NCBI GenBank assembly: GCA_016213825.1
Contig: JACQZP010000026.1
Coordinates: forward strand, 434,001-498,000
Source: Acetobacterium woodii
GTDB lineage: Bacteria; Bacillota; Clostridia; Eubacteriales; Eubacteriaceae
DNA length: 64,000 nt
Reading direction: 5' to 3'
Positions 35,982 to 51,313 of the stretch are shown piece by piece. The notes beneath the pieces were generated by a model, which was not told where the DNA came from, made no database searches, and saw nothing but the letters and a program-made list of their open reading frames with translations. Each line of letters opens with the position of its first letter. Position 1 is the first letter of the stretch. Both the position numbers and the translations under genes were made by a program.

Positions 35982-36074
35982 AGGGTCACCTCCGTTATAT
36001 TTATGCAAATCATTATTAAGCAATTGCAAAACTAAATTCAAAGCTCACGGCATTTTAGCAATTACCAATAATTC

Positions 36075-44249: not shown

Positions 44250-45143
44250 TTATTCAATCGTGTTTCTGAGGATGCCGATTTTTTCTATGGCGGCTTCAAT
44301 TACATCACCATGCTGTAAAAACTGCGGCGGATCAAGCGCAAAGCCGACACCGGCTGGGGTTCCGGTCAGAATGATATCTCCTGGCAGTAGCGTCATACCC
44401 TGGGACAGGTCGCTGATGATCGATGGAATGTCAAAGATCATCCGACCAGTATTGGAGTGCTGTCGCACTTCACCGTTGACCCGGCAGGTAATATCGAGAT
44501 CAAAGGGAATTCTTAAATCATTTTTATGGAGGATTCTCGGGCCCAGCGGACAGAAAGTGTCCAGCGATTTGCCTTTGTACCATTGGGAATGCTTTTTCTG
44601 GAGATCCCGGGCAGTGATGTCGTTGGCAATGGTATATCCGAAAATATAATCTTCCGCGTCTTCTTTTGAGATATCAGAACCTTTTTTGCCAATCACAATC
44701 GCCAACTCAACTTCGTAGTCGATTTGTTTGGTGGCTTTGGCATGGGATAGAATGACGGTGTCCGGTCCGGTAACCGAGGTAGGCAGTTTGGAAAAATAAA
44801 TGGGATTTTCCGGTACTTCTCCCATTGAAGGGATGTTTTTAATCTCTTTGGCGTGGTCCGCATAGTTTTTTCCCAGACAGAAAATATTTCTTGGGGGCTT
44901 AGGTATGGGTGCCAGCAGTTTAACCAAGCTCAGATTAATGCCTAGATTAGAGTGCTCATCCATGACTTTTTTCATGTCTGCCAGCAGTTCATCAGTAGCC
45001 AGTGGAATGAAGTCGATGAGACGCTCGGGAAACTTGAGACCCATCAGCTTTCCGATAGTGGTAATCGGCAAAACCTTTGTTTCATCTGCTGTCAGAATGC
45101 CGCCTTCACTAAATGCGTTGTATTGATAAGTTACGAAATACAT
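44250..45143 (-). CDS. Fumarylacetoacetate hydrolase-family protein
   Basis: The protein has 297 residues. The FAH fold motifs are IFCLGKNYADHAKEI and the metal-binding EVELAIVIGKKG (E-x-E), then GYTIANDITARDLQ and GDIILTGTPAGVGFA. These enzymes cleave or decarboxylate C-C bonds of aromatic breakdown products or oxaloacetate-like acids. The start at 45143 lies behind GGGAGGGA at a good distance; an upstream ATG gives a leader without homology. It is transcribed towards the rsmA operon terminator. Confidence 0.85.
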   Translation of the reverse strand: MYFVTYQYNAFSEGGILTADETKVLPITTIGKLMGLKFPERLIDFIPLATDELLADMKKVMDEHSNLGINLSLVKLLAPIPKPPRNIFCLGKNYADHAKEIKNIPSMGEVPENPIYFSKLPTSVTGPDTVILSHAKATKQIDYEVELAIVIGKKGSDISKEDAEDYIFGYTIANDITARDLQKKHSQWYKGKSLDTFCPLGPRILHKNDLRIPFDLDITCRVNGEVRQHSNTGRMIFDIPSIISDLSQGMTLLPGDIILTGTPAGVGFALDPPQFLQHGDVIEAAIEKIGILRNTIE

Positions 45144-45320
45144 ATAAAATCCCTCCCTTTTTCTTAATATCATACCATTTTCGGGGTTGAAATTCCAGAT
45201 AAATTCAAAGAACAAAAATTCAAATGGTGATAATCTGGGTACCCACAGTTACATATCAATTACTTACCCCCAAAAATGAAATAATATCTTAAGATAACGA
45301 TTTCTTTTAAGCAAAGAGCA

Positions 45321-45349
45321 TTGACAATTCAGGCTAATTAAATTATGAT
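45321..45349 (+). promoter_or_regulatory. Promoter of the pyr operon
   Basis: TTGACA (45321-45326), a 17-base spacer and TATGAT (45344-45349). Start predicted near 45356, giving a leader of about 150 bases to pyrB. Confidence 0.75.
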
Positions 45350-45362
45350 TATTGTAATTAAG

Positions 45363-45475
45363 TATGCAGGCTTTTTGTAAGCGAGGCATAAAGGTGCAAA
45401 AGGAACAATACATTTAATGAGGAAAATTGCCTATTAGAAAGTATGCCGCTATTTTTATAAAGCGGCTAGTTTTTT
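45363..45475 (+). promoter_or_regulatory. pyr leader attenuator with alternative hairpins
   Basis: Hairpin 1: TATGC (45363-45367) with GCATA (45386-45390), inner GCTT with AAGC. Terminator: GCCGCT (45445-45450) with AGCGGC (45461-45466), then six T (45470-45475). GGCATA (45385-45390) can also pair with TATGCC (45442-45447), which would break both and allow read-through. No clear PyrR consensus was found. Confidence 0.55.
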
Positions 45476-45508
45476 GCCCATAATTGTGTTTATGATAGGA
45501 GGAACATT

Positions 45509-46435
45509 ATGTTAAAAGGAAGACATTTAATCGAGCCTGGAGACTTTCAACTGGACGAAATTGAATCGATTATGCAGCTGGCTGATAATATTATTGCAGA
45601 CCCCGAGGGTTATTCTTTGGTTTGCAAGGGAAAATTATTAGCCAGCCTTTTTTATGAGCCTTCCACACGGACACGGTTCAGTTTTGAAGCAGCGATGCTT
45701 CGACTTGGGGGAGAAATCATCGGATTCGACGATCCCAATAACTCATCGGTTTCTAAGGGTGAAAGTCTGGGGGATACCATCCGGACCATCGAATGTTATT
45801 CCGACATTGCGGTAATCCGGCATCCCCGGGAAGGAACCGCCCGACTGGTTTCAAAATTTGCCAACGAAATGCCCATTATCAATGCCGGCGATGGCGGACA
45901 TGAACACCCCACTCAAACATTGACAGACCTACTAACCATCAGAAAATTTAAAGGGGGCTGTGACAACCACGTGGTGGGTGTCTGCGGTGACTTGCTCTTT
46001 GGCCGAACCATCCATTCCCTGGTCAAAACTTTAAGCCGCTATCAGGGTGTAAAATTTGTGTTTATCTCACCGAAAGAATTAAAGATGCCGGCCCATATTC
46101 TCCATCAGCTTGATCCGAAAACCTATACCGAAACCACCAGCCTGGATGAGGTCATAGGTAATCTGGATATCCTCTATATGTCCCGGGTTCAACGGGAGCG
46201 TTTTGTCAGTGAGGAAGAATATCTGCGGTTAAAAAACTATTATATTCTAGATAAAAAGAAAATGAAAAGCGCCAAAGAAGAGATGATTGTCATGCATCCG
46301 TTGCCTCGGGTTAATGAAATCGCCACCGAAGTGGATGAGGATCCCCGAGCAGTCTATTTTGCCCAGGCCAAATATGGCATGTATGTAAGAATGGCGCTTA
46401 TTGCCAAACTTTTGGGAGTGGAGGATAAGAAATGA
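45509..46435 (+). CDS. pyrB: Aspartate carbamoyltransferase catalytic chain
   Basis: The 308-residue enzyme joins carbamoyl phosphate and aspartate, the first committed step of UMP synthesis. The carbamoyl-phosphate motif is STRTRFSFE, then [12 protein letters not shown], and [10 protein letters not shown] closes the active site. AGGAGGAA precedes the ATG. The gene overlaps pyrI by four bases, so catalytic and regulatory chains are translated together. Confidence 0.95.
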
Positions 46436-46866
46436 TCAACGTATCGAAACTGAAAAAGGGTATCATCATTGACCATATTGAAGCGGGACACGGTTTTGAG
46501 ATTTACAAGGAACTGCACCTCAACGATATTGACGATGTGGTGGTACTGCTTAAAAACATTCCCAGCAAGAAAATGAAACAAAAGGATTTAATCAAAATCG
46601 AAACTGACCTGCAGATTGACATGACCGTGCTGGGTCTCATCGATCCCAATGTTACCATCAACTTTGTTAAAAACGGCGAATTGTGCAAAAAAATCAGTTT
46701 GACCTTACCAAAGGTTGTTAATGGTATTATGACCTGCAAAAATCCCCGGTGCATTACCCAATACGAGGATGTCAAAGATATTCGGTTTTATTTGGTCAAT
46801 GAAGAGAAAAAACAATACCGCTGTGAGTACTGCGACGCCTACACCACTTTTATTGACGAAGAATAG
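46432..46866 (+). CDS. pyrI: Aspartate carbamoyltransferase regulatory chain
   Basis: The 144-residue protein has the nucleotide-binding N-terminal domain ([21 protein letters not shown]) and the C-terminal zinc domain with CKNPRC and CEYC, a four-cysteine zinc site. It should bind ATP, CTP or UTP and control the PyrB chains. The ATGA overlap with pyrB shows coupling. It is the last gene before the inverted repeat in the operon. Confidence 0.93.
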
Positions 46867-46883
46867 ATATTGGTTTCGGCGCC

Positions 46884-46999
46884 GGTACCAACACGTATCA
46901 ATCAGTTGTATGTGCGCAGTTCGGACAGCCATTTCGATTGATAATCGAATTGTCTGTTCGCCCTGAGGCATACAACACGATATGATACGTGTTGGTACC
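46884..46999. repeat. 116-nt nested inverted repeat between pyrI and pyrC
   Basis: Perfect 17-base ends, GGTACCAACACGTATCA (46884-46900) and its complement (46983-46999). Inside are TTGTATG (46906-46912) with CATACAA (46969-46975), CGGACAG with CTGTTCG (one G-U), and TTCGATT (46933-46939) with AATCGAA (46943-46949). No T run follows, so it is not a standard terminator. Confidence 0.75.
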
Positions 47000-47113
47000 T
47001 AGTAGCACTTCAGTGTTTATATTGCCATGGATACATAGGCATGATACTAACTTATTTTTAAATATTTCGATCAAAGCATAATCACTAAAACCAGAAAAAC
47101 AGAAGGAGGAAAG

Positions 47114-48286
47114 ATGAAAACCTTAATCAAGAACGTTGAAATGGTTGATGCCGAAGGAAGACGGTATGGCAAAGTATTGATTGAAGACGGAAAAATCAAG
47201 AAGGTCTATAAAGAAAAGGGGAACGTCAAATCCGAATATGATCAGGAAATTGATGGTCAGGGACTTGTACTCATGCCAGGATTTATTGACATGCACTGTC
47301 ATTTGCGAGACCCTGGTTATGAATATAAAGAAACCATGGAAACCGGGATGGCGGCAGCTTTAAAGGGCGGTTTTACCACGTTGGTTGCGATGGCCAACAC
47401 CAAACCCATTATGGATGATGCGGTTGTTATTAAAGCAAATCTGGATAAAGCGATAGTTTTAAATCAATGCAATCTGATCCAGGTTGCGGCACTAACCAAA
47501 GACTTTGGCGATTCAGAACTGGTTGATTTCAAAACTATTCGCCCGCTGACCAACGTATTTTCTAACGATGGGGTTTCCATCTTAAACTCAGAAATTATGG
47601 TAAAAGGTCTGGAAGCATCCAGCGAACATGATTTTCTGCTGTTGACCCACTGCCAGCCGGAAACCGCTCTGGTCAAACGGGATGTGGAGCTGCTGGCCGA
47701 AAATGGCGGTCATCTTCACGTTTGTCACATCAGTAAAAAAGATACCCTTGATTTAATCCGAGCCGCCAAGGAAAAGGGACTGGACATCACCTGCGAAGTC
47801 ACACCCCATCATATTTTTGCCTCGGCCATGGACTACAAGGTTAACCCATCATTTCGCACCTATCCGGATCGTCGGGCTTTAATCGAGGGCATCAAGGATG
47901 GCATCGTGGACATGTGCGGCACCGACCATGCGCCTCATTCAGAAGAGGATAAGCTTAAGGGAGCACCGGGGATTAATAATTTTGAAATGGCCTTTGCCAT
48001 GTATTACACGGTATTTGACCAAAACAGCATCTCACTGGAAAAACTCAGTGAGATGTTAAGCGATGCCCCAGCCAAACGATTGGGCATTAAAGCCGGACTG
48101 ATCAAAGAACGTTATCCGGCGGATCTGGTGCTGGTGGACCTGAACTGGGAAGGGAAAATCAATCCCAAAGAATTCGTTTCAAAAAGTAAAAACAATCCCT
48201 TTGGCGGTGAGACCTTAAAAGGAAAAGTAATGATGACAATGGTGAAGGGAGAACTTAAATATGATGATAATGGATCGACTCTATAA
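47114..48286 (+). CDS. pyrC: Dihydroorotase
   Basis: The 390-residue zinc enzyme cyclises carbamoyl aspartate to dihydroorotate. The metal motif is DMHCHLRDPG, where class-I enzymes have DxHxHxR, and TDHAPHS carries the catalytic Asp near residue 273. MANTKP also fits. AGAAGGAGGAAAG gives a strong start, so pyrC can be translated on its own after the inverted repeat. It overlaps pyrF by 26 bases. Confidence 0.93.
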   Translation: MKTLIKNVEMVDAEGRRYGKVLIEDGKIKKVYKEKGNVKSEYDQEIDGQGLVLMPGFIDMHCHLRDPGYEYKETMETGMAAALKGGFTTLVAMANTKPIMDDAVVIKANLDKAIVLNQCNLIQVAALTKDFGDSELVDFKTIRPLTNVFSNDGVSILNSEIMVKGLEASSEHDFLLLTHCQPETALVKRDVELLAENGGHLHVCHISKKDTLDLIRAAKEKGLDITCEVTPHHIFASAMDYKVNPSFRTYPDRRALIEGIKDGIVDMCGTDHAPHSEEDKLKGAPGINNFEMAFAMYYTVFDQNSISLEKLSEMLSDAPAKRLGIKAGLIKERYPADLVLVDLNWEGKINPKEFVSKSKNNPFGGETLKGKVMMTMVKGELKYDDNGSTL

Positions 48287-49121
48287 TGATGCTGTAAAAA
48301 AAGGACCCATTTGTGTGGGTTTGGATACAACTCTGAAATTTTTACCAAAATACCTGTTGGACAAAGACTGGTCGGATGGTGAGAAAATAACTGAATTCAA
48401 TAAAAAAATTGTAGACGCCACCGAAGATCTGGCGGCTTCTTACAAGGTACAGATTGCCTGTTATGAATCGCTTGGTCTGGATGGCATGAAAGCCTACAGT
48501 GAAACCGTCAAATATGCCCGCAGCAAAGGGGTTGTCGTCATTGGTGACGTGAAGCGGGGCGATATTTCGTCAACCGGGGATCAATACGCTAAAGGCCATT
48601 TCAGCGGCGATTTCGAGGTCGATATTATGACCGTCAACGCCTATATGGGTGAAGATGCGGTATCGCCCTATTATAAATATATTAAAGAAAACGACAAGGG
48701 CATTTTTATTCTGCAACGGACTTCCAACCCATCGGCAGTTGATCTGCAGAACCTCAAAGTCGGGGATGACACCATCTATGAAGTCATGGGCGATAAGATC
48801 GAAGCTTGGGGAAGTGCCTTCCGAGGTGACCATGGATTTTCGGCCATTGGCTCGGTGGTTGGCCTGACTCGTCCCGAAGAATTTGAAGCCATCCGGGAAC
48901 GCTGTCCCCACACCTTCTTTCTGGTGCCGGGTTACGGCGCTCAAGGCGGAACCGGCGAAGACATTGCCAATATCCTGAAGAAATCACGATGCGCCGTGGT
49001 TAATTCTTCCCGGGGTCTGATCACCGGCCATCAAAAAGCCGGCTGTGAGGATGAAGGCTTTGCCGAGCACATCAGAAACGCGACCCTGGCAATGCAGGAG
49101 GACATTCTTAAATGGCTGTAA
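48261..49121 (+). CDS. pyrF: Orotidine-5'-phosphate decarboxylase
   Basis: The 286-residue enzyme is the longer type of OMP decarboxylase. It carries the catalytic DxKxxD array in GDVKRGDI, then GVGLDTT-like ICVGLDTTLKF near the N-terminus. It makes UMP by removing CO2 from OMP. GGGAGA (48248-48253) lies eight bases before the first ATG. The start lies inside pyrC, and the gene overlaps pyrK by ten bases at the other end. Confidence 0.93.
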   Translation: MMIMDRLYNDAVKKGPICVGLDTTLKFLPKYLLDKDWSDGEKITEFNKKIVDATEDLAASYKVQIACYESLGLDGMKAYSETVKYARSKGVVVIGDVKRGDISSTGDQYAKGHFSGDFEVDIMTVNAYMGEDAVSPYYKYIKENDKGIFILQRTSNPSAVDLQNLKVGDDTIYEVMGDKIEAWGSAFRGDHGFSAIGSVVGLTRPEEFEAIRERCPHTFFLVPGYGAQGGTGEDIANILKKSRCAVVNSSRGLITGHQKAGCEDEGFAEHIRNATLAMQEDILKWL

Positions 49122-49813
49122 TCCTAACTAATACCAGTGTATCACCGGGAATTTTTAAAATGACTGTGGAATTTACCGGTGATGTAAAACCAGGTCAGTT
49201 CTTTATGCTGCGAGCCTGGGACAAGGATCCGCTGTTATCCCGTCCCATCAGTGTACATGACTATACACCCGGCAAGCTGACTTTTTTATACCAGGTGGTG
49301 GGAAAAGGAACCGAAATTTTAGCCCGCCTTCAAACTGGGGATGATGTTACCATTCAAGGTCCTTACGGTAATGGGTTCCCAAAAATTACCGAAGACCTAT
49401 GTGTGGTCGGCGGCGGTATCGGAACGGCACCGCTTTATTATCTGGTTCGAAACTATAAAGCTGAGAACCCTACCGGAAAATGCCGGGTTTATCTGGGCTT
49501 TCGGGATACGCCCTATGGCGTAGAAGCCTTTGAAGCCTTGGCAGACGAGGTTGTTCTGGATGTGGGGGGGATTATTACCCATAAGCTTTCAGTTACACCC
49601 GATGAGACGGTGGTTACCTGCGGACCGGAAATTATGATGGAATCAGTGGCTAAAACTGTGTCGGCAGAGAACACCGTCTACGTTTCACTGGAAGCGCATA
49701 TGGCCTGTGGCATTGGTGCCTGTTTAGGATGCACCTGCGAAACCAAATCTGGCAATAAAAAAGTTTGTAAGGATGGCCCGGTATTTTTACGGGAAGAGGT
49801 GTTTTATGTCTAA
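49112..49813 (+). CDS. pyrK: Dihydroorotate dehydrogenase electron-transfer subunit
   Basis: The 233-residue protein has an FAD domain (RPISVHDY), an NAD site (VVGGGIGTAPLYYL) and a C-terminal 2Fe-2S site with four cysteines (ACGIGACLGCTCE and KVCKDG). It passes electrons from PyrD to NAD, so the pathway uses the NAD-linked class-1B enzyme. It overlaps pyrF and pyrD by a few bases each. Confidence 0.93.
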   Translation: MAVILTNTSVSPGIFKMTVEFTGDVKPGQFFMLRAWDKDPLLSRPISVHDYTPGKLTFLYQVVGKGTEILARLQTGDDVTIQGPYGNGFPKITEDLCVVGGGIGTAPLYYLVRNYKAENPTGKCRVYLGFRDTPYGVEAFEALADEVVLDVGGIITHKLSVTPDETVVTCGPEIMMESVAKTVSAENTVYVSLEAHMACGIGACLGCTCETKSGNKKVCKDGPVFLREEVFYV

Positions 49814-50711
49814 ATGTCTGGAAACAAAATTTAATGACATTCTCTTTAAAAACCCGGTGATCCCGGCATCCGGAACCTTCGGCTTTGGTCGCGAATATGA
49901 AGCTTTCTATGATCTGGCTAAACTGGGTGGGCTCTGTTCCAAAGGGCTAACCCTGGAACCTAAACCGGGGAACAAGGGCATGCGTCTCTGGGAAACACCA
50001 GCGGGACTGATGAACAGCATCGGTCTGGAAAACCCGGGAATCGATGCTTTTATCAAAACCGAATGGCCCCATCTAAAAGCAATTGATACCGTCACGGTTA
50101 TTAATGTCGGCGGAAAAGATGAAGAGTCTTATCTGACTGCCATAGAAAAACTGAATGCCATTGATGCCCAGCTCATCGAGCTGAACATCTCCTGTCCCAA
50201 TGTGAAGGCCGGCGGCATGGCTTACGGTATGAAGGCGGAAACGGCCGGGGATATCACCAAAAAAGTGGTGGATATTTCCCGCCATCCGATTATGGTCAAG
50301 CTGTCTCCCAATGGTGATTCAATTGCCGATATTGCACTAGCCTGTGAGGCTGCCGGGGCCCAGGGGATTTCGCTGATTAATACCCTTCAGGGCATGGCCA
50401 TCGACTATAAGAAAAAAAAGGTCGTCTTTGACAATCTCTATGCCGGATTATCCGGACCGGCGGTCAAACCCATTGCCCTGCGGATGACGCATCAAGTCTG
50501 TCAAACCGTGAAAATCCCGGTTATGGCCATGGGCGGTATCAGCGATTGGCAAGATGCCTTAGAATTTATCATGGCTGGGGCAACCTGCATCCAAATCGGC
50601 ACCATTAACTTTAATAACCCGATGGCTCCCATCGAGATTATCGAAGGTCTGGAAGCCTATTGCATCAACGAAGGGCTGGCTAATATTGGCGAAGTCCGGG
50701 GAATTGTTTAG
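49806..50711 (+). CDS. pyrD: Dihydroorotate dehydrogenase, catalytic subunit (class 1B)
   Basis: The FMN enzyme has 301 residues from 49806. NPVIPASGTFGFG, ELNISCPNVK with the catalytic Cys, VKLSPN and LINTLQGMAID are class-1B features. It oxidises dihydroorotate to orotate with PyrK. GAGGTG sits five bases before the start, inside pyrK; an upstream ATG would give an N-terminal tail that only reads the end of pyrK in another frame. Confidence 0.93.
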   Translation: MSKCLETKFNDILFKNPVIPASGTFGFGREYEAFYDLAKLGGLCSKGLTLEPKPGNKGMRLWETPAGLMNSIGLENPGIDAFIKTEWPHLKAIDTVTVINVGGKDEESYLTAIEKLNAIDAQLIELNISCPNVKAGGMAYGMKAETAGDITKKVVDISRHPIMVKLSPNGDSIADIALACEAAGAQGISLINTLQGMAIDYKKKKVVFDNLYAGLSGPAVKPIALRMTHQVCQTVKIPVMAMGGISDWQDALEFIMAGATCIQIGTINFNNPMAPIEIIEGLEAYCINEGLANIGEVRGIV

Positions 50712-50737
50712 TATAAAATATAGAAATGAGGAATAGT

Positions 50738-51313
50738 ATGAGTCAGGAAGTATTAGATATATTAAAAGAAACCGATGCCTTTTTAGAAGGACATTTTTTA
50801 CTCTCATCAGGCAAGCACAGCGACCAGTATGTTCAATGTGCCAAGGTGTTGCGCTTCCCGGATGCCGCAGCTAAGGTGCTGGCCCCAGTAGTGGAACAAT
50901 TAAAAGCATTAGAAATTGATAAGGTTGTTGGACCAGCTATGGGCGGGGTCATCGTCTCTTACGAAATCGGCCGTCAATTGGGCAAAGAATCAATTTTCAC
51001 CGAACGTAAAGACGGACTGATGGAACTGCGACGGGGCTTTGAAATCAAACCCGGTGAACGCGTTATCATCACCGAAGACGTGGTCACCACTGGAAAATCC
51101 ACCATTGAAACGAAAAAAGTATTGGAAGAACTGGGGGCGGTTGTTTTAGGCGTTGCCTGCATCGCCGACCGTCGGGCTGCCGGTGTTGAAATTGACATGC
51201 CCATCTACTCATCGATTAAACTGGAAATTACTGCCTGGGATCCCGACGAGTGCCCGGTTTGCAAAGCCGGTAAAGTTGCTTTAGTAAAACCAGGTTCCAG
51301 AGGCAATGCTTAA
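50738..51313 (+). CDS. pyrE: Orotate phosphoribosyltransferase
   Basis: The 191-residue enzyme makes OMP from orotate and PRPP. The PRPP-binding loop is VIITEDVVTTGKST and the start of the fold is HFLLSSGKHSDQYVQ. ATG 50738 is preceded by GAGGAAT; the ATG at 50726 is less likely. It follows pyrD by 26 bases, so it ends the run of pyr genes. Confidence 0.93.
   Translation: MSQEVLDILKETDAFLEGHFLLSSGKHSDQYVQCAKVLRFPDAAAKVLAPVVEQLKALEIDKVVGPAMGGVIVSYEIGRQLGKESIFTERKDGLMELRRGFEIKPGERVIITEDVVTTGKSTIETKKVLEELGAVVLGVACIADRRAAGVEIDMPIYSSIKLEITAWDPDECPVCKAGKVALVKPGSRGNA

Follow-up and report, generated by a model that had tools for sequence, protein, structure and literature searches.

The pyr operon of Acetobacterium woodii raises a simple question: why does a long inverted repeat stand between two of its genes, pyrI and pyrC? 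The repeat occupies positions 46884–46999 of a 64,000-nt stretch of DNA (assembly GCA_016213825.1, contig JACQZP010000026.1, positions 434,001 to 498,000 of the forward strand), referred to below as the window. An earlier reading of the letters without database searches (the sequence-only reading) had offered three answers, namely a mobile element resembling miniature inverted-repeat transposable elements (MITEs) or repetitive extragenic palindromic (REP) units, an RNA processing site that separates the pyrBI and pyrCFKDE messages, or a regulator binding site. Our analysis points to the first of these in its MITE-like form: the pyr hairpin very probably descends from a palindromic element of Acetobacterium that is mobile but non-autonomous, and is an old copy that has diverged. 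Copies of this family are dispersed, have ends that can be located, keep their base pairing and, where best preserved, are flanked by a duplicated hairpin.

Fold and position of the pyr hairpin

The outer arms of the repeat (46884–46900 and 46983–46999) are complementary at 17 of 17 positions, with 82 nt between them. Folded as RNA, the 116 nt form one nested hairpin of -63.2 kcal/mol, compared with -27.4 +/- 3.4 for 200 dinucleotide shuffles, none of which folded as well (z -10.5); the opposite strand, folded as DNA, gave z -10.8. The perfect 17-base ends and the single long hairpin between pyrI and pyrC described in the sequence-only reading are thus borne out, as are three further points: the absence of a T run, a ribosome-binding site belonging to pyrC itself (AGAAGGAGG, immediately 5' of its ATG), and the lack of a visible target-site duplication, the best direct repeat between the flanks being a 7-nt AAAAACA. 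The parts of the locus are as follows.

46884–46999, + strand: element core, read as a diverged copy of the Acetobacterium palindromic MITE-like family (hidden Markov model E 8e-16; BLAST; fold z -10.5)
46884–46900, + strand: left outer arm, different in sequence from the family arm GTACCGACCAATTGTTA, yet fully paired (17/17 with 46983–46999)
46983–46999, + strand: right outer arm, complement of the left outer arm
46901–46982, + strand: inner core with conserved family blocks (alignment A1 and pair counts, see below)
46864–46883, + strand: position of the left end in well-preserved copies (about GAGGTTGTCGATAAACTACC), unrecognisable in the pyr copy
47000–47023, + strand: position of the right end in well-preserved copies (about TRSGTTATCTTTTTTGACAGTCTG), unrecognisable in the pyr copy and without a T run
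47024–47099, + strand: remainder of the enlarged pyrI–pyrC spacer (sequence comparison with the collected loci)

Three ready-made identities were considered. An intrinsic terminator was rejected, given that no T run lies 3' of the stem and that a scan admitting loops of 3–8 only called 0 terminator-like sites in 46800–47150. A known Rfam RNA was dismissed as well, since the Rfam 15 covariance models gave one weak match in 44900–47300 (E 1.9, a long non-coding RNA model), which falls outside the element. For the third, a pyrC promoter brought in by the element, the promoter scan of 46800–47150 called 0 forward-strand sites and 1 reverse-strand site, against 1.0 expected.

A dispersed palindrome family of Acetobacterium

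Compared by BLAST with its own genome (G000, 3.94 Mb), the hairpin matched itself on both strands and, at E <= 0.001, another five places. All five match the right-hand half of the core, the best at 84% over 45 nt (E 2.9e-7); together with weaker places in G000 they are palindromes of 98–150 nt with a common consensus, of which nine were extracted. A typical family copy used as query in the same genome returned 59 pieces up to E 10, with half-copies counted separately and 40 of 56 candidates scored. A hidden Markov model built from 25 other copies recovered the left-out pyr copy with E 8e-16, as its sole match in the window at E <= 10. Judged by these comparisons, the pyr hairpin is a diverged member of a dispersed family of imperfect palindromes.

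A covariance model was then built from alignment A1 (25 family copies plus the pyr copy, 26 rows). At a cut-off of E <= 0.01 it matched all 19 genomes of the genus, with 6–135 matches in each and 1304 in total, 59 of them in G000; 150 candidates were scored per genome, and high counts are possibly underestimates. Among 21 genomes from the other genera of the taxonomic family, three gave matches, six in all and weak. A pattern made of the 20-nt arm of the repeat, with at most 2 mismatches, is present in 16 of the 19 genus genomes and in none of those 21; the remaining three (G007, G012 and G013) have 21, 102 and 6 model matches, respectively. In its exact form, the pattern was found in genome_contigs in Acetobacterium or in unplaced Firmicutes/Bacillota metagenome-assembled genomes, among the matches listed (80 of 111), and gave no match in viral_contigs. 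The check that the sequence-only reading had suggested, a search for copies in this and related genomes, turned up copies dispersed in G000 and across Acetobacterium, and, as in MITEs, these many copies are too short to encode a transposase.

Ends, target duplications and empty sites

From the collected loci, 160 full copies with flanks were gathered, a non-random set chosen by searches. Their cores measure 96–211 nt, with 109 of the 160 at 96–100 nt, and the longer ones carry internal inserts. Flank conservation drops towards background about 18–20 nt to the left and 16–24 nt to the right of the core, and the inferred element ends lie near GAGGTTGTCGATAAACTACC (left, about 20 nt) and TRSGTTATCTTTTTTGACAGTCTG (right, about 24 nt). 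Inversion is strong in the core arms but imperfect in the outermost 20 and 24 nt (GAGGTTGTC / CAGACTGTC), and the right end of the family consensus is T-rich. The surroundings were usable for 140 copies, and by a crude rule 18 of these fall for the most part within a long open reading frame; for the remaining 122, the element is faced by the upstream gene in 82 cases and by the downstream gene in 59.

Target-site duplication was assessed by scoring the best direct repeat between the flanks of 158 copies, with 316 swapped right-flank pairings as control. A score of at least 12 was reached by 18 of the 158 copies and by none of the controls, whose maximum was 11. In these 18, the left repeat ends 17–23 nt from the core in 14 cases and the right repeat starts 22–26 nt away in 12. 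The left repeat copy ranks in the top 2% of 300 shuffles by fold in 12 of the 18, these 12 being 19–38 nt long, and at least 5 T follow within 8 nt of the right repeat copy in 9 of the 18 (by eye). An empty-site alignment of 12 copies with related genomes agrees with duplication of a hairpin in places: a terminator hairpin is single at the empty L138, double at L175, and present as one plus a partial one at L148. L107 was compared with a truncated copy in L223. Target-site duplications and empty sites, as in MITEs, are found for the family, the pyr copy itself having no duplication. Copies, filled and empty sites, ends and duplications all uphold the MITE-like half of the first answer given by the sequence-only reading; the REP-like half fails on core size.

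Some copies depart from the common layout. Nine of the 26 A1 copies carry, at the corresponding place of the left or the right arm, an insert of 18 nt that reads ACCCAAAGGGCAGACCCT or nearly its reverse complement (left arm in L021(+), L028, L032 and L033; right arm in L020, L025, L027, L031 and L034), as if the arms were exchangeable. A size class of 181–211 nt (L055, L197 and others) is longer by some 90 nt of internal sequence, which is rich in hairpins too. In L129, within 230 nt of reverse-strand position 883 and ahead of it, there is a copy whose arms differ from the usual ones but still complement each other (GGGCCGATCATTTATCAATC / GATGTGATAAATGTCGGCCC); it adjoins another right arm and is apparently nested. 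In L042 (reverse strand, starting at 1510), a remnant of 48 nt has both arms and no centre.

Candidate sources of a transposase

An IS30 profile matched 9 of the 19 genus genomes and exceeded the cut-off in two, G002 and G007, where the match consists of two overlapping frames and contains an internal stop, respectively; G000, G004 and G010 gave no IS30-family match of any strength. The cores, at 96–211 nt, hold no IS30 transposase of their own. Among the unpaired arms in the collected loci, 23 of 40 were examined and none brackets a transposon-sized element, nor do any of 27 unpaired outer-end matches in these loci. Among the arms listed for G002 and G003 (by eye), no correctly oriented left/right pair lies 0.8–3 kb apart.

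The pyr operon and the history of its copy

The genes around the hairpin form a pyrB-I-C-F-K-D-E cluster.

45509–46435, + strand: pyrB (PF02729, PF00185)
46432–46866, + strand: pyrI (PF01948, PF02748)
47114–48286, + strand: pyrC (PF01979, PF12890)
48261–49121, + strand: pyrF (PF00215)
49112–51313, + strand: pyrK, pyrD and pyrE (PF10418, PF01180, PF00156)

Upstream of pyrB, a promoter-like TTGACA-17-TATGAT lies at 45321–45349 (11/12 match). Downstream of it, at about 45446–45478, GCCGCTATTTTTATAAAGCGGC followed by a T run (by eye) has the look of an attenuator; this site had no Rfam match and was not called by the terminator scan, with its restriction on loops.

The comparison of pyrI–pyrC gaps in relatives, likewise proposed by the sequence-only reading, covered 18 of the 19 genus genomes, the window's included (G003 by eye; G008 not found). 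The spacer is short, 13–28 nt, in 13 of the 18, and the element is present in three: G000 and G010, each with a spacer of 247 nt, and G017, with a spacer of 279 nt and a copy that is more typical of the family and in the same orientation. The spacer of G009 measures 46 nt and is without the element, and that of G018 measures 136 nt and holds a different hairpin. The stretch at 47000–47100 finds its sole match among the collected loci in the G010 orthologue. A tree of pyrB+pyrI+pyrC places G009 within the G000 group (100/100) as the sister of G010 (97/98); it pairs G017 with G016 (100/100), a genome whose spacer is short. The simplest history is one gain before the split of G000, G010 and G009, a loss in G009, whose 46-nt spacer we read as the scar of a lost element, and a separate gain in G017. 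A single older gain would need about seven losses; it retains some plausibility because G017, G000 and G009 share a weak 3' spacer likeness (by eye) and a TAG stop codon.

The G018 spacer belongs to a second dispersed Acetobacterium repeat, which matches positions 36025–36069 of the window (82% over 45 nt, E 1.7e-6) as well as L142, L217, L180, L182, L176, L157, L207, L154, L194 and L218.

Within the pyr copy, the inner core is family-like and the outer arms are not: the 20-nt pyr arm, with up to 3 mismatches, occurs in the 19 genomes solely at the pyr locus of G000 and G010. These two copies differ at 6 of 116 positions, which comprise one compensated pair (G12-C105 in G000, T12-A105 in G010), one change from U-G to C-G, and three that open a pair in one genome.

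The alternative that survives best is that the pyr copy has been put to use, with RNase III cutting the stem, or the stem protecting the pyrBI 3' end, and unequal levels of pyrBI and pyrCFKDE as a result. Its arms, which differ from those of the family yet pair fully, and the compensated change are both in keeping with such a use; the copy has no T run, so it need not terminate; and the same spacer is occupied elsewhere by another copy (G017) and by a different hairpin (G018). There is also precedent, in that the passages of PMC2229807 on these elements describe an influence of ERIC on the stability of upstream messages in Yersinia and propose RNase III action on NEMIS transcripts. However, half of the differences between G000 and G010 (3 of 6) open a pair in one genome, so any constraint is not tight. 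A conserved role in separating pyrBI from pyrCFKDE, the second answer of the sequence-only reading, appears unlikely on the sequence comparison because 13 of 18 spacers are 13–28 nt and because G009, the sister of G010, is without the element. Overall, we regard the recruitment of this particular copy as rather unlikely, with a modest chance of being right.

Pairing and covariation

Pairing is kept across the family. In A1, 96.8% of cells pair, and sliding the partner drops pairing to 21–48%; changes on both sides affect 11 of 35 pairs, against a shuffle mean of 3.6 and 0 of 500 shuffles as high. Further pair types were not above shuffles (207 of 500 as high). In 102 distinct copies of 96–100 nt, 96.8% of cells again pair and 181 are doubly changed, compared with a mean of 56 and a maximum of 87 in shuffles, although kinship among copies inflates these covariation counts. 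The covariation favours a role for the folded form, be it in transposition, as an RNA, or only through hairpin-templated correction.

This excess over shuffles in both sets is what one would see in a structured RNA family that persists because of its function as RNA and not through mobility. Yet the further pair types do not exceed shuffles, no Rfam model matches within the element, and covariation would also arise if hairpins template their own correction or if the element has to fold in order to transpose. Filled and empty sites also speak against an RNA family of this kind, and the hairpin duplications largely weaken it, leaving it improbable. The long dyad in an operon spacer had suggested a binding site for a regulator particular to the pyr operon; such a dedicated site is very unlikely because the same core is found at many other places in the genome, and, with a spacer too short for the element in 13 of 18 genomes, it was rejected. 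A chance or relic structure without relatives, to which the occurrence of the exact arms at the pyr locus of G000 and G010 only might have pointed, is refuted by the homology (E 8e-16) and the fold (z -10.5), and we give it next to no credence.

A probable mobile element and its possible mode of insertion

The reading of the pyr hairpin as a diverged copy of a mobile palindromic element has to be weighed against several observations. At the pyr locus itself, there is neither a duplication nor any recognisable family end, and the short pyrI–pyrC spacers of relatives contain no obvious hairpin. In the family at large, 140 of the 158 scored copies have no flank repeat scoring at least 12, and 6 of the 18 that do have repeats that are not hairpins by the fold test, or are part of one only. 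In most comparisons with empty sites, an insertion is evident but no clear duplication accompanies it, and some insertions split a hairpin. Copy counts are not independent, because some copies are orthologues of one another, and part of the covariance-model matches may be other, unrelated hairpins, because G012 has 102 model matches and no arm-pattern match. Lastly, the IS30 loci of G002 and G007 lack family ends, both in motif scans of the collected loci and by eye, and no transposase with family ends was seen in the loci examined, whole genomes having been left unscanned.

Given the dispersal, ends and duplications of the family, we propose, by analogy with the insertion sequence IS1630 and the Yersinia repeat YPAL/RU-2, that a transposase supplied in trans would cut one strand at each foot of a target hairpin, and that repair of these cuts would duplicate the hairpin. 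How the pyr copy arrived is deduced from the rest of the family, because it has no target duplication or family ends. It would have entered the pyrI–pyrC spacer in an ancestor shared by G000, G010 and G009 and been deleted in G009. Its outer arms would have changed jointly and stayed paired, either through selection on the hairpin or through hairpin-templated (quasipalindrome) correction, and the copy presumably forms a long stem in a transcript that runs from pyrI through to pyrC without being terminated. Any effect on message processing or stability would be secondary and hypothetical.

More tentatively, and with somewhat less than even confidence, the enzyme may target an extruded hairpin or cruciform and cut at its feet, in which case the length of the duplication (19–38 nt in the 12 clear cases) would be set by the target stem and not by the enzyme. 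If so, terminators would be natural landing pads of the mobilising enzyme, and every inserted element would end up between two terminator hairpins, so that it could spread without costing the genome its terminators. At the L006/L018 site, one hairpin copy has the loop GAT and the other the opposite loop ATC, as might be expected if a cruciform had been resolved there. Because sequenced species offer both filled and empty sites, a stem-set duplication length is directly testable.

For annotation, the conspicuous pyr hairpin is best treated as a mobile copy and therefore should not be recorded as pyr regulation without experiment. More broadly, these results add to an acetogen genus a repeat family with 6–135 model matches per genome, the best copies of which duplicate terminator-type hairpins.

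Comparison with known systems

A literature search found no described Acetobacterium repeat of this kind among the entries listed, an absence that is provisional, as the search covered open-access literature only. The A. bakii paper PMC6239172 reports no such repeat in its passages on the searched terms, and the terms Acetobacterium and IS30 are absent from a review of prokaryotic MITEs (PMC10969869). Provisionally, the family is new as described here, though the kind of element is already known.

REP sequences resemble the family in being dispersed extragenic palindromes. Their units measure 20–40 bp, according to the part of PMC3733652 that describes them, and identity with REP is unsupported and was rejected because the Acetobacterium cores measure 96–211 nt in 160 copies, not 20–40 nt; no search was aimed at REP-type transposases. 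ERIC (127 bp, enterobacteria) and NEMIS/Correia (Neisseria) are likewise short and dispersed and form long stems in transcripts. By their description in the relevant passages of PMC2229807, however, these elements have TA at their termini, whereas the Acetobacterium family has duplicated hairpins.

We found few precedents for this hairpin-duplicating habit, namely IS1630 and YPAL/RU-2. IS1630, a member of the IS30 family in Mycoplasma fermentans, inserts in a similar manner with hairpin-type target duplication, and duplications of 16, 23, 25 and 26 bp are described for it in strain M64. It differs in being 1.2–1.4 kb long and encoding a transposase, whereas the Acetobacterium core is 96–211 nt and no IS30-type partner with family ends was found. 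YPAL/RU-2 of Yersinia belongs to another host group, and the likeness is one of behaviour, not of sequence. As described in the passages of PMC2229807 devoted to it, this element is a palindrome of ~168 bp, intergenic and with internal inverted repeats, and has target duplications of 3–26 bp, compared with duplicated hairpins of 19–38 nt in Acetobacterium. Like the family described here, it is an intergenic palindrome with filled and empty sites, and its target duplications lie at or beside a dyad symmetry.
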